56,250 nt of DNA, taken from Bacteroidaceae bacterium (GTDB lineage: Bacteria; Bacteroidota; Bacteroidia; Bacteroidales; Bacteroidaceae). Location of the stretch: assembly GCA_017516885.1 (NCBI GenBank), contig JAFXAR010000075.1, forward strand, positions 1-56,250, written 5' to 3'. How positions within the stretch are numbered: the first letter of the stretch is position 1; the number at the start of each line of letters is the position of its first letter. The translations under genes and the position numbers were made by a program. A model generated the notes under the pieces. The model did no database searches, had not been told where the DNA came from, and worked only from the letters and a program-made list of their open reading frames with translations. Below, piece after piece: positions 1,228 to 31,938 of this stretch.

Positions 1228-2934
1228 ATGCAGAAGAGAATAATTGAGTGCGTGCCCAATTTTTCTGAGGGCCGCAACATGGAGGTCATAAAGCAGATAA
1301 CCGATGCCATTGAGGGCGTTAAGGGTGTAAAGCTTTTAGACGTAGACCCGGGCGAGGCTACTAACCGCACTGTGGTAACATTTGTGGGCGGGCCTGAAGC
1401 GGTGATGAATGCTGCTGTTGCCTCAATAAAGCGTGCAACAGAACTTATTGACATGCGGCAGCATAAGGGAGCGCATCCGCGTATGGGAGCGTGCGATGTC
1501 TGCCCGCTGATTCCTGTTTCAGGAATCACAATGGAGGAGTGCGCCGAACTTGCGCGCACTCTTGCCAAGCGTGTTGCCGATGAACTTAACGTGCCTGTAT
1601 ATTGCTACGAGGCAGCCGCATTCACTCCTGAAAGGCGTAACCTTGCAGTGTGCCGCAAGGGCGAATATGAAGCGCTGCCCGAAAGGATGGCAAGCGCAGA
1701 GGAACAGCCCGATTTTGGCGCACGCCCATTTGACGAGGGCATTGCCCGCACCGGCGCAACGGCTGTAGGCGCACGCGATTTTCTTGTGGCCGTGAACTAT
1801 AACCTCAACACAACTTCAACGCGCCGCGCAAATGCCATTGCGTTTGATGTGCGTGAAAAGGGCCGTCCTGTGCGCGAGGGCAATCCCATTGTGGGCAGGA
1901 TTGTTAAGGATGCCGATGGCAATCCTGTGATGAAACCCGGAACGCTCAAGGCATGCAAGGCTATTGGCTGGTTCATTGACGAGTACGGCATTGCCCAGGT
2001 ATCAATGAATCTCACCAATCTTTCAGTAACTCCATTGCACGTTGCCTTTGACGAGGTTTGCCGCGCTGCCGATGCTCGCGGTGTGCGCGTTACCGGCACT
2101 GAAATCGTGGGCCTTGTTCCAAAAAAGGTGCTTGTTGATGCCGGCCGTTATTTTCTGCGCAAGCAGAACCGCTCAACAGGTGTTCCCGAAAAGGAACTGG
2201 TGCGCATCGCAATAGAGAGCATGGGACTGTCTACCCTCAAGGAGTTTAAACCCGAAGAGAAGGTAATAGAGTATATGCTTGAGGCTGACGATCAGAAAGG
2301 GATAAAGAAACTTGTTGACATGACCTGTACCGGCTTTGCTGAGGAGACTGCAAGCGAATCCCCTGCTCCGGGCGGCGGCTCAATATCGGCATATATGGGA
2401 GCGCTGGCGGCAGCTCTTGGTACAATGGTGGCAAACCTCTCGGCACACAAAGCCGGCTGGGACGACCGCTGGGAGTTTTTCTCCGACTGGGCAGAGAAGG
2501 GCATGAATGTGATGAACGAACTGCTTGCGCTCGTTGACGAGGACACCGCGGCTTTCAACAAGATTATGGACGTGTTCAGCATGCCCAAGACAACTCCCGA
2601 AGAGAAAGAGGCGCGTGAGGCGGCAATGCAGGAGGCGACGCTCTATGCAACAGAAGTGCCCCTGCGCACAATGAAGGCCGCATATAAGGTTTTTGATATT
2701 GTGCGCGCAATGGCTGCGGAGGGCAATCCAAATTCCGTTTCCGATGCCGGAGTGGGAGCGCTTGCAGCACGCTCTGCTGTGATGGGGGCGTGCCTGAATG
2801 TGAAAATTAACGCTGCCGGGCTCAAGAACCGCGAGGTTGCCGACAGGCTTGTAAAAGAGGCTGAGGAGATACAGGCTCTTGCACAGCGGGCCGAAATGGC
2901 TATTCTTGGAATTGTGGCGCTTAAGATAAACTGA
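1228..2934 (+). CDS. ftcD: Glutamate formimidoyltransferase / formimidoyltetrahydrofolate cyclodeaminase
   Basis: Bifunctional enzyme of histidine breakdown. It moves the formimino group of N-formimino-glutamate to tetrahydrofolate, then removes ammonia to give 5,10-methenyl-THF. The start is the ATG giving MQKRIIECVPNFSEGRN, the conserved family N-terminus; the frame is open further upstream but that part is untranslated leader. The 568 residues form the transferase N- and C-subdomains (about 1-330; GAHPRMGACD with His83 aligning to the catalytic His82 of the pig enzyme) and the cyclodeaminase (about 345-565; PAPGGGSISAYMGALAAAL). This full fusion is like the mammalian protein and the usual size. 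It is first in the operon and supplies the last step, so no hutG-type hydrolase is needed. Its TGA stop is already part of the repeat tract that follows. Confidence 0.95.
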   Translation: MQKRIIECVPNFSEGRNMEVIKQITDAIEGVKGVKLLDVDPGEATNRTVVTFVGGPEAVMNAAVASIKRATELIDMRQHKGAHPRMGACDVCPLIPVSGITMEECAELARTLAKRVADELNVPVYCYEAAAFTPERRNLAVCRKGEYEALPERMASAEEQPDFGARPFDEGIARTGATAVGARDFLVAVNYNLNTTSTRRANAIAFDVREKGRPVREGNPIVGRIVKDADGNPVMKPGTLKACKAIGWFIDEYGIAQVSMNLTNLSVTPLHVAFDEVCRAADARGVRVTGTEIVGLVPKKVLVDAGRYFLRKQNRSTGVPEKELVRIAIESMGLSTLKEFKPEEKVIEYMLEADDQKGIKKLVDMTCTGFAEETASESPAPGGGSISAYMGALAAALGTMVANLSAHKAGWDDRWEFFSDWAEKGMNVMNELLALVDEDTAAFNKIMDVFSMPKTTPEEKEAREAAMQEATLYATEVPLRTMKAAYKVFDIVRAMAAEGNPNSVSDAGVGALAARSAVMGACLNVKINAAGLKNREVADRLVKEAEEIQALAQRAEMAILGIVALKIN

Positions 2935-3120
2935 AAACTGAGAACGGAGAACTGAAAACGGAGAACTGAGAACTGAAAACGGAAAACGCGGTCGCAGATT
3001 TCAGATTTCAGATTTCAGTTTTCACCTTTCAGCTTTCACCTTTCAGCTTTCACCTTTCAGATTTCACCTTTCAGATTTCAGCTTTCAGTTTTCAGCTTTC
3101 ACCTTTCACCTTTCACCTTT
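2930..3120 (+). repeat. GAAAACTGA-type short repeat tract forming a potential hairpin
   Basis: This gap between ftcD and hutU is almost wholly built of short units of 7-9 bases. The first part (about 2930-2987) repeats CTGAAAAC, GAGAACGGA and related forms. The second part (about 2996-3120) repeats the reverse complement sense, TTTCAG, CTTTCACC and GTTTTCAG. The two arms are complementary, so a transcript could fold into a long imperfect hairpin between the two genes. The ftcD stop codon lies inside the first unit. The same repeat family appears in mnmA at 18201. It is non-coding here. Confidence 0.85.
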
Positions 3121-3132
3121 AACTTTAATACT

Positions 3133-5145
3133 ATGACTGACTTTCAAAAGGAGATACTTGCAGGAATACCTGATGTGCTGCCTGCAAAAAAAGAGTACGA
3201 CGCATCGGCGAACCATGCCCCCAAGCGCAAGGATATTCTTACCGATGAAGAGAAAAAACTCGCTTTGGCTAACGCATTGCGCTATTTCCCTGAAAAGTAC
3301 CATGCGGAACTTGCTCCCGAATTTCTTGATGAACTGAAGAGATACGGCCGCATATATATGTACCGCCTGCGTCCCGATTACGAAATGCACGCGCGCCCCA
3401 TAGACGAGTATCCGGCGCGTTCGCGCCAGGCTGCGGCAATTATGCTAATGATACAGAACAACCTTGACAAGGCTGTTGCCCAGCATCCGCACGAACTTAT
3501 CACATACGGCGGCAATGGCGCTGTGTTCCAGAATTGGGCACAATACCGCCTCGCAATGAAATATCTTGCCGAGATGACCGACGAGCAGACGCTTGTGATG
3601 TATTCGGGACATCCTCTGGGGCTTTTCCCATCGCACAAGGATGCTCCGCGCGTAATTGTTACCAATGGCATGGTAATCCCTAACCACTCGTCACAGGACG
3701 ATTGGGAGCGCTTCAATGCAATGGGCGTATCGCAGTATGGCCAGATGACGGCAGGCTCATATATGTACATTGGTCCTCAGGGAATTGTGCACGGCACTAC
3801 AATAACCGTGATGAATGCGGCGCGCAAGCGCATGAAGCCCGGACAGAACGACCTTAGAGGCATGCTGTTCGTTACAGCCGGATTGGGAGGAATGTCGGGC
3901 GCACAGCCCAAGGCCGGAAATATATCGGGCGTGGTAAGCGTAACGGCCGAGATAAACCCTGCTGCTGCCGAAAAGCGGTACAGGCAGGGGTGGGTGGACG
4001 AACTCCACTCTTCGCTTGATGAACTCATACCGCGTATTAAAGAGGCTGTGGAAAATAAGGAGGTTGTCTCATTTGCGTATGTGGGCAATGTGGTTGACCT
4101 TTGGGAACGCCTTGCCGATGAGGGCATGAATGTAGACCTTGGCAGTGACCAGACCTCGCTCCACAACCCTTGGGCAGGAGGCTATTATCCTGTGGGATAC
4201 TCTTATGAGGAGTCAAACCGCATGATGGCCGACGAACCGGAGCGCTTCCGCGAGTGCGTGCAGGCATCGCTCCGCCGCCATGTTGCTGCAATCAACCGCC
4301 TGACTGCGCGCGGAATGTATTTCTTTGACTACGGAAACGCCTTCCTGCTTGAGTCGTCGCGTGCCGGTGCTGATATTCTTGCCGCTGACGGCAAGTTCCG
4401 CTATCCGTCGTATGTGCAGGATATTATGGGCCCGATGTTCTTTGACTATGGTTTCGGTCCTTTCCGCTGGGTATGTACCTCGGGCAATGAAAAGGACCTT
4501 GAGGTTACCGACCGCCTTGCAGCCGAGGTGCTTGAGAGTATGCTTGCCGATGCGCCAGGGGAGATTCGCGGGCAGTTGGAGGATAATCTGCACTGGATTC
4601 GCGAGGCTAAGCAAAACCGCCTTGTGGTGGGTTCTCAGGCGCGTATCCTATATGCCGATTCCGAGGGCCGCACACGCATTGCACTGGCTTTCAACGAGGC
4701 GATTGCAAAAGGCGAAATTTCTGCACCGGTGGTGCTTGGACGCGACCATCACGATGTTTCGGGAACTGATTCGCCCTACCGTGAGACCTCGAACATTTAT
4801 GACGGTTCGCAGTTCTGTGCCGATATGGCTGTGCAGAATGTCATAGGCGACTCCTTCCGCGGGGCAACATGGGTGTCTATCCATAATGGCGGCGGAGTAG
4901 GCTGGGGCGAGGTCATGAATGGCGGATTCGGCATGGTTATTGACGGCAGCGAGGATTCGGCGCGTCATATTGAGGAGATGCTGCTGTGGGATGTGAACAA
5001 CGGCATAGCACGCCGCAGCTGGGCACGCAACAAAGGCGCGATGTTTGCCATAAAGCGCCAGATGGAGCGTACTCCTCTGCTTAAGGTGACAATGCCTAAT
5101 ATTGCCGACAGGGAACTTATTGAAAAGGTATTCAACGAGAAATAA
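3133..5145 (+). CDS. hutU: Urocanate hydratase
   Basis: NAD+-dependent enzyme converting urocanate (from HutH) to 4-imidazolone-5-propanoate, in the cytoplasm. Recognisable family blocks in order are [78 protein letters not shown] and [19 protein letters not shown]. The protein has 670 residues, about 110 more than the classic Pseudomonas/Bacillus HutU (about 555). This is the longer form seen in Bacteroidota and some other anaerobes. Its ATG follows the repeat tract directly, with no Shine-Dalgarno sequence but an A/T-rich leader. hutH follows after 8 bases, so the genes are surely co-transcribed. Confidence 0.95.
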
Positions 5146-17840: not shown

Positions 17841-18974
17841 ATGTTTGATGAAAAGAGTGTTCTTGTTGGAATGAGCGGCGGAATTGACAGCACCGCAGTG
17901 TGCTGCATGCTGCTTGAGCAGGGCTATAGGGTTGAGGGTCTGACGTTCGTTACAAGTGATGCCGGTTTCAAGGCTGCTGAATCGGCAGCTGCTTTAGCGG
18001 AGCGTTTGGGCATACGGCATCATGTGGCAGATGTAAGAGAGCGTTTCAAGGAGCTTGTAATAATGCCGTTTATAAACAGTTATTTGTCAGGATTTACACC
18101 CAATCCTTGTGTAAACTGCAATCCAGCTGTAAAGTTCCGTCTGCTTGAAGAGTGGGCCGATAGATTAGAATGCAAGCACATTGCTACCGGACACTATGTT
18201 AAAACTGAAAGCGGAAAACTGAAAACTGAAAACGGGAAACTGGAAACTGAAAGCGGGGAGGCGGCTGAGCGCAGATATTATATTGTTGCCGGTGAGGATT
18301 GCAGAAAGGACCAGAGCTATTTCCTTTGGAGGCTTACTCAGCAGCAGCTTTCAAGGGTAATATTTCCGCTTGGCGGTATGGAAAAGCCGCAGGTTGTTGA
18401 GTATCTCAAGGAGCGCGGATATGAGTGCGTGGCCTCGGGCGGGGAGAGCATGGAGGTTTGCTTTATTCCCGGCGACTACCGCGATTTTCTTAAGGAGAAT
18501 GTTCCCGGCATTTGCGAGCGTTTCGGCGGCGGTTCTTTTGTCGACCCGCAAGGGCGGGTGTTGGGCAGGCATGCAGGCTTCCCTTTCTACACAGTCGGGC
18601 AGCGCAAGGGCCTTGGGGTAGCGCTTGGCTATCCTGCCTATGTGCTTAAGATAAATGCAGAGAAAAATACAGTGATGTTAGGCACTGAAGAGCAGTTGCA
18701 GGCACGGCATCTGCTTATTGATGAGCCGTCGTGGGTGGGAGATGTCCCGCAAGAACTGACCGTGAAACTGCGTTACCGCAGCAGGGCGGTTGCGTGCGAT
18801 GCTCCCCGACGTGTTGATGACGGGCGGTGGCTTGTAACACTGCGCGAACCGGTACAGGCAATAACTCCCGGGCAGTCGGCGGTGTTCTACTGTGGAAATG
18901 TTGTAGTTGGCGGTGCTTTTATTGCCGGCCAGCGAGGTATAAACCAATGGATTCATGGCAATGGACAATATTGA
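17841..18974 (+). CDS. mnmA: tRNA 2-thiouridylase MnmA, with an in-frame repeat insertion
   Basis: Transfers sulfur to C2 of wobble uridine 34 in tRNA Lys, Glu and Gln. The N-type ATP pyrophosphatase loop is SGGIDS (12-17). The first catalytic Cys is in TPNPCVNCNPAVKF (Cys90/Cys93). The persulfide Cys207 is in GGESMEVCFIPGDYRDF. KDQSYFLW (157-163) and the beta-barrel block FYTVGQRKGLGVALG follow. Length 377 is near normal, but residues about 121-140 (KTESGKLKTENGKLETESGE) are encoded by the GAAAACTGAAA repeat and sit between ATGHYV and RRYYIVAGED, where relatives have a short surface loop. xseA overlaps its last 20 bases. Several Bacteroidota carry two mnmA copies; which one this is cannot be told. 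Confidence 0.92.
   Translation: MFDEKSVLVGMSGGIDSTAVCCMLLEQGYRVEGLTFVTSDAGFKAAESAAALAERLGIRHHVADVRERFKELVIMPFINSYLSGFTPNPCVNCNPAVKFRLLEEWADRLECKHIATGHYVKTESGKLKTENGKLETESGEAAERRYYIVAGEDCRKDQSYFLWRLTQQQLSRVIFPLGGMEKPQVVEYLKERGYECVASGGESMEVCFIPGDYRDFLKENVPGICERFGGGSFVDPQGRVLGRHAGFPFYTVGQRKGLGVALGYPAYVLKINAEKNTVMLGTEEQLQARHLLIDEPSWVGDVPQELTVKLRYRSRAVACDAPRRVDDGRWLVTLREPVQAITPGQSAVFYCGNVVVGGAFIAGQRGINQWIHGNGQY
18201..18257 (+). repeat. GAAAACTGA-type repeat inside the mnmA coding region
   Basis: Units such as AAAACTGAAAGCGG, AAAACTGAAAACTG and GAAACTGGAAACTG run for about 57 bases in frame, so that they read as KTESGKLKTENGKLETESG. The same units fill the ftcD-hutU gap at 2930-3120. Confidence 0.85.
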
Positions 18975-31711: not shown

Positions 31712-31739
31712 TTGTTGTTGCATATTTTTTGTATCTTTG
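31712..31739 (+). promoter_or_regulatory. Putative promoter of the rsmF-like gene, touching the 81-bp repeats
   Basis: TTG (31712-31714; two further TTG follow), 17 bases, then TATCTTTG (31732-31739), an exact TAnnTTTG match. The TTTG is also the first base-paired segment of repeat unit 1. The leader RNA would contain the whole repeat tract. Confidence 0.5.
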
Positions 31740-31938
31740 CGCTAAAGCGCGAACATGCCCTGCACTCGCTGTGATAAACAAAAATCATTTTGTTGTCTCG
31801 CTCGTTTGTTGGCACATTTGCGGTAAACCGCGAACATGCCCTGCACTCGCTGTGATAAACAAAAATCATTTTGTTGTCTCGCTCGTTTGCCGGCACATTT
31901 GCGCTAAAGCGCGAACATGCCCTGCGTGCTCGCTGCAT
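31736..31938 (+). repeat. 81-bp tandem repeat, two full units and one partial
   Basis: Units begin with TTTGCG at 31736, 31817 and 31898, an exact 81-base period. Each starts with a 7-bp stem and TAAA loop: TTTGCGC-TAAA-GCGCGAA in units 1 and 3, TTTGCGG-TAAA-CCGCGAA in unit 2. The change C-G to G-C keeps the stem. Each full unit also has AACAAAA-ATCA-TTTTGTT, a second hairpin. The third unit diverges after CCCTGC. Because 81 is 27 codons, repetitive frames stay open on both strands, but no start, leader or protein family supports coding. This fills most of the 424-base gap between thyA and the rsmF-like gene. Confidence 0.9.

Follow-up and report, generated by a model that had tools for sequence, protein, structure and literature searches.

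An in-frame heptamer tract in mnmA of a Bacteroidaceae bacterium, probably a captured piece of a dispersed repeat

How does a tandem repeat that lies between genes come to lie also, in frame, within the gene of a tRNA-modifying enzyme? The question is raised by the mnmA gene of the window, by which is meant the whole stretch of 56,250 bases analysed here (Table 1). The gene product matches Pfam tRNA_Me_trans, _M and _C (PF03054, PF20258 and PF20259) and PDB entry 2der (E = 2.2e-54), and retains the SGG-DS, TGHY and KDQSY motifs. Its source genome (G000; 2.3 Mb in 75 contigs, 87% complete) contains a single full mnmA match; a second, weak match, on contig C46, is another heptamer array. The latter array (L191:1875-1942) lies directly against what is probably the start codon of a gene for a UmuC/DinB-type polymerase. 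In a sequence-only reading of the window, repeat units of 7-9 bases, of the same family as a tract between two other genes, were proposed to have entered mnmA without breaking the frame. The ORF of 377 aa is indeed intact and the tracts at 18201-18257 and 2928-3120 agree; the unit, however, is uniformly 7 bases long (8 units make 56 bases), the order in mnmA being AAAACTG, AAAGCGG, AAAACTG, AAAACTG, AAAACGG, GAAACTG, GAAACTG and AAAGCGG.

Table 1 Features of the window discussed in the text
Feature	Position	Strand	Description
mnmA (tRNA 2-thiouridylase)	17841..18974	+	377 aa, intact; from ORF, Pfam and PDB relatives
Eight in-frame heptamers, mnmA residues 121-139, KTESGKLKTENGKLETESG	18201..18257	+	TGA lost only in units 2, 5 and 8
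Intergenic heptamer array, family and orientation of the mnmA tract	2928..2988	+	adjoins ftcD; first TGA, 2932-2934, is the ftcD stop codon
Intergenic heptamer array, opposite orientation, ftcD-hutU	2995..3120	-	CAGNTTT on + strand

Over its 57 bases, the mnmA tract has an identity of 0.78 at lag 7 and of 0.89 at lag 21. None of 20,000 synonymous recodings attained a lag-7 identity of 0.78 (maximum 0.70), nor did any of 20,000 shuffled-and-recoded peptides. Hence, the likeness of the tract to the heptamer family lies at the DNA level, and chance low complexity or codon bias was rejected as its source by the synonymous recoding. Within the window, only 2926-3134 and 18196-18257 attain this lag-7 value, and the best ungapped match of the mnmA tract is 45/57 against the intergenic tract and 29/57 against the remaining window. 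One repeat family sits both within and between genes. A distinct 21-base periodicity of coding arrays was not established: autocorrelation is seen in the intergenic arrays as well, at every lag tested, and a search for tandem repeats reports a 21-base unit there too, at 2929-2988, so that growth by 21 bases is not peculiar to the coding copies.

Between ftcD and hutU (genes assigned by Pfam), the heptamer family fills the spacer, of 198 bases by hand count, in both orientations. The ftcD stop codon at 2932-2934 comes from the first heptamer of the array, and the relatives G036 and G038 read one codon further. The same spacer was compared at 8 of 12 loci tried (G013, G009, G007 and G021 were unparsed), three further genomes giving no orthologous flank, and it ranges from 11 to 594 bases over these eight relatives: it is short in G027 (11 bases), G036 (12), G038 (13), G020 (21) and G005 (42) and long in G041 (333), G022 (396) and G004 (594). 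The filled spacers of the last three hold other sequence, without heptamers. This variation is in line with the proposal that the repeat is mobile or expands, as far as comparison between genomes can speak to it. Elsewhere in the window, an 81-base tandem repeat (2.3 copies, 31725-31925) lies between genes and is by eye unlike the heptamers.

The repeat was mapped through the source genome, where a degenerate four-unit pattern gave 95 matches against 3 for the reversed pattern. Merging of matches within 500 bases left 26 loci with four or more units, all of which except C27 were fetched for study, and 7 of the 26 lie inside Pfam-supported genes. These are mnmA, three Ser/Thr kinases with the array behind the kinase domain (C8, C9 and C74), two proteins with it near the C terminus (C26, DUF6359; C35, Big_2) and, in antisense, a UDP-glucose dehydrogenase gene (C40). 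The start of C22, the end of C35, the start of C60 and the end of C74 are themselves heptamer arrays; hence, the assembly probably breaks at such places and the arrays are undercounted. Four-unit matches numbered 38 in G004 and 61 in G022; among the 13 genus genomes searched, none was found in four (G019, G011, G018 and G003) and one or two in four more. G009 and G041 have few arrays genome-wide, though their mnmA holds a short tract. Across the family, the degenerate pattern was present in 86 of 201 genomes searched, but these counts were rejected as a sign that the AACTGA-type heptamer extends beyond the genus: in many of the genomes the reversed control was equally high. Other Bacteroidaceae genera have other heptamer-like repeats, for example a GAGAATT-type in genus g24, with a high reversed control in several of them.

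The arrays of the source genome often alternate with two longer modules. Module A (~105 bases) folds to a hairpin and has 27 matches in G000 as well as matches in 33 of 44 genus genomes (E ≤ 1e-6). Module B (~100 bases) forms part of the translated sequence of the C8 and C9 kinases, with heptamers at either edge, and the C74 paralog lacks it. The three paralogs (L175:458-843, L176:71-498 and L201:1801-2150) can be read side by side, two with the translated module ICIFGNASSDGSSAASQ.VMPLGSQKASVAK and the third without. Candidate machinery was sought in the same genome. A REP transposase was rejected as the copying machinery, as Y1_Tnp (PF01797) gave no match in the 87% complete G000 and was found in 5 of 14 control genomes; loss of mismatch repair was rejected as the cause of expansion, as two MutS_V matches above the cut-off are present. 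Known RNA families in the modules were likewise rejected: an Rfam scan of 10 loci gave three matches, none of them on a module: one to a tRNA, one to abiF RNA and one, with a score far under the cut-off, to a microRNA model. The abiF RNA match (L219:2494-2530, on C19 of G007; 60.9 bits, cut-off 37) is separated by ~900 bases from one copy of the module found in G007 (see below).

In a pure heptamer array, each reading frame runs into a TGA every 21 bases. In the window mnmA, the loss of TGA from the in-frame units and its retention in the other five has p = 0.018. In the six sense arrays within genes of G000, the slot KGA is GGA in 6/6 of the cases in frame and in 3/19 elsewhere (p = 5e-4). 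Survivorship accounts for some of this stop pattern, and the three kinases, like the two surface proteins, are paralogs, so that this p-value overstates independence. Intergenic slots of the genome hold 139 TGA versus 67 GGA, and 0/45 eight-unit stretch-by-phase readings of intergenic arrays are open. The same loss is seen in the mnmA of G013, where TGA is absent from 7/7 in-frame slots and from 1/13 others (p = 1e-4); GAA stands in four of these seven slots, three times in the unit GCGAAGA, which was absent from the 93 intergenic G013 units counted. The view of the sequence-only reading that selection kept the array in frame is borne out in that in-frame stops have been lost from the arrays, and purifying selection would be the filter.

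The mnmA loop was compared among relatives, all of them draft assemblies. The named relatives were the best 80 of at least 586 loci, 76 of which were parsed (L058, L076, L099 and L109 were unparsed), and the nearest are MAGs from goat, cattle, buffalo, sheep and deer guts. Neither of the findings that would have refuted the sequence-only reading was made: the repeat is common elsewhere in the genome, as described above, and the extra residues are absent from the parsed relatives except the nearest, L031 (80% identical), the one of the 76 with heptamers in the loop, in a short tract; L032, L034, L035 and L096 have 1-5 extra loop residues. Within the genus, mnmA was found in 43 of 44 genomes. 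Counted from ATGHY to KDQS, the loop has 24 residues in 21/43 and 25-32 in 18/43, and it is long in four: 40 residues in G004, 41 in the window, 68 in G007 and 71 in G013. The loop of the window is thus longer, as had been claimed, by 17 residues over the commonest genus length rather than by about 20. When the loop was removed before tree building, G013 fell together with G038, G040, G036 and G032 (weak support, 87/75) and away from the other long-loop genomes, and the sister of G004, G034 (support 97/88; partial sequence), is without insert. On this weakly supported tree, several gains, or gains plus losses, appear to be needed. With respect to inserts outside the genus, a split hit was seen only for G007 among the matches listed for 301 family genomes (21 of the genus), a weak indication, since total length does not show the loop.

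A further comparison concerns short loops. G041 and G009 share 77 identical bases exactly at the mnmA loop (L144 and L143), the next longest run being 33, and are 76% identical in mnmA outside it; G022, the near twin of G041 (98% upstream and 95% downstream), differs in the loop. To judge from these alignments, either the loop was exchanged by short-patch recombination or an assembly is chimeric.

The two longest loops are filled differently. The insert of G013 consists of 20 GTTGAGA-type units, with three identical 21-base copies standing consecutively. G013 contains 61 triplets of GTTGARA units (at most one mismatch) and G000 contains 2; for AACTGAR units, the counts are 0 and 32, respectively. 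The prevailing heptamer therefore differs between the two genomes, and the mnmA insert of G013 matches the unit of its own genome; the reversed control is uninformative here, since GTTGARA reversed is its own rotation. Arrays were obtained under the pattern used from 19 of the 20 G013 regions fetched. Of these, two overlap the end of a gene, one falls within a putative 100-codon frame of the opposite strand, and the remainder are outside any frame of at least 100 codons. No array but that of mnmA stands deep in a long frame. In G007, the order within the insert is, by eye, heptamers, a hairpin module and other short repeats. For the 141 bases queried, there were at least 81 matches at E ≤ 10 and at least 45 at E < 0.001 in G007, itself included, 40 of 125 candidates having been scored for these counts. 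Among 20 matches with loci, mnmA alone is deep in a long frame, and in several other cases the match touches an unannotated frame at its start side. The mnmA of G007 contains a dispersed module. As the same loop is filled with a different repeat in another species, repetitive DNA has seemingly entered it more than once. A dispersed composite in frame in G007 and a different heptamer in G013 are, at the comparative level, what a repeat that is mobile or expands would leave behind.

The sequence-only reading had placed the added residues in a surface loop, and the structural model agrees, with the tract at the tip of a modelled surface β-hairpin. In the AlphaFold2 model of MnmA (31 sequences, mean pLDDT 88.3), the insert stands between strands 120-127 and 145-150, and residues 131-140 have a mean pLDDT of 60, so the insert is likely to be flexible as modelled.

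We prefer, with a probability of about 0.7, the reading in which a piece of a dispersed mosaic repeat was captured in a permissive loop of MnmA, filtered by frame and expanded to give the present tract, which is probably tolerated rather than useful. The source of such pieces would be the many heptamer arrays carried by several genus genomes, which in G000 are often interleaved with modules of ~30-110 bases and are mostly intergenic. Occasionally, such a piece would be captured by a gene, in the case of mnmA at the surface β-hairpin tip, and capture probably occurs at microhomology, given that the native hairpin codons are often already heptamer-like. It would persist only if its length preserved the frame and each in-frame TGA disappeared, and growth would then proceed by 21-base, seven-codon steps; pieces may also pass between species as short patches, for which the 77-base run is the single case. 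For MnmA, the most likely consequence would be a longer, flexible, charged loop. A more ambitious version is possible but doubtful: arrays and hairpin modules together might form a mosaic system that copies itself, makes its unit uniform within a genome so that each genome has its own dialect, seeds heptamer-like sites, including genes, by a templated mechanism and supplies conserved enzymes with new, exchangeable loops, the mnmA hairpin being a site where it lands repeatedly.

The insertion site itself speaks partly for an expansion in place, in which native E/K-rich hairpin codons, near-heptamer by chance, slipped into an array and nothing was copied in. Of the 36 genus mnmA genes without insert, 14 have an empty site among the gene's top 1% of 14-mers for resemblance to the heptamer, 5.6% being expected for random sites, although the relatedness of the genomes limits this test; the other 22 sites are outside the top 1%. 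A heptamer-like empty site fits capture or growth at a seed, and the periodicity of the tract at 7 and 21 bases would likewise suit slippage. The dispersed hairpin module within the G007 insert, the construction of the G013 insert from a unit common in its genome and the occurrence of the tract's family at 25 other loci in G000 argue against it, and we consider expansion in place alone to be unlikely, though it may act together with capture.

That the charged loop was selected for, for example in tRNA or partner binding, with the repeat merely as raw material, is improbable. Such a role would agree with a loop that is longer in several species and was apparently exchanged once between species, but 39 of the 43 genus loops have only 24-32 residues, the insert sequences are very diverse and the model is of low confidence in the loop. 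A phase-variation switch, in which one heptamer gained or lost would shift the frame and silence mnmA, is very improbable: a 7-base step does break the frame arithmetically, yet the units are imperfect (compare the lag-7 and lag-21 values above) and the perfect copies in G013 are of 21 bases, which preserve it. Chance low complexity or an assembly artefact, to which the 75-contig draft and the arrays at some contig starts or ends (C22, C35, C60 and C74) might point, is scarcely credible against the intact frame, the 0/20,000 recodings that attain the periodicity and the different heptamer inserts at the same place of mnmA in other genomes.

The preferred reading, capture followed by filtering and expansion, shows a route by which a tandem repeat with stops in every frame can become coding, through the loss of in-frame stops and seven-codon growth. 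One enzyme loop that holds different repeats by species is a natural experiment on selfish DNA making protein sequence, and comparing its filled and empty sites gives access to the long-standing question of the spread of heptamer arrays. In the licensed PMC literature, no report was found of heptamer arrays in mnmA or of heptamers that are in frame and have shed their stop codon.

REP elements and bacterial interspersed mosaic elements are hairpin modules joined as intergenic mosaics. The dispersed hairpin modules found here, such as module A, are like them, but unlike in REP/RAYT systems the joints are formed by heptamer arrays, and G000 is without a Y1 transposase match. The Rickettsia palindromic elements (Ogata et al. 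2000), according to PMC2229807, are palindromes of 105-146 bases that are dispersed between genes and in frame within genes, and an enzyme bearing one, Gmk, was reported to be still active. They share with the present system a dispersed repeat in frame in conserved genes (mnmA and the kinases in G000, mnmA in G007 and G013). The window tract differs in being 57 bases of direct heptamers that have lost TGA every third unit; it is not a 105-146 base palindrome with terminal inverted repeats, although the G007 insert does hold a hairpin. The tract resembles these elements in effect, not in structure. The BrickBuilt MITE of Porphyromonas gingivalis, which has a minisatellite core, is also a dispersed Bacteroidales element containing tandem repeats, but it has a 23-base unit and terminal inverted repeats and is reported to be always intergenic (PMC4596501).

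Closer relatives are found among heptamer arrays. Those of GGGNATC in Xanthomonas and Nostoc are also abundant and over-represented outside genes, but they are G-rich and G-quadruplex-forming, unlike the heptamers here, and no hairpin modules are described with them in the portion of PMC4692102 that was available. Arrays of TAACTGA occur in Beggiatoaceae, Cyanobacteria and five Bacteroidetes, and their forward arrays were argued to terminate genes (PMC4679880). They agree with the present arrays in a TGA-bearing 7-base tandem unit, many arrays per genome, a mostly intergenic position and an obscure mechanism of spread, and differ in the unit itself and in that the forward arrays here are coding, with the in-frame stops lost. 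G000 has a tandem 7-base unit at many loci, which are the marks of this class. The system belongs with the bacterial heptamer arrays, and its new feature is that forward arrays have turned coding.
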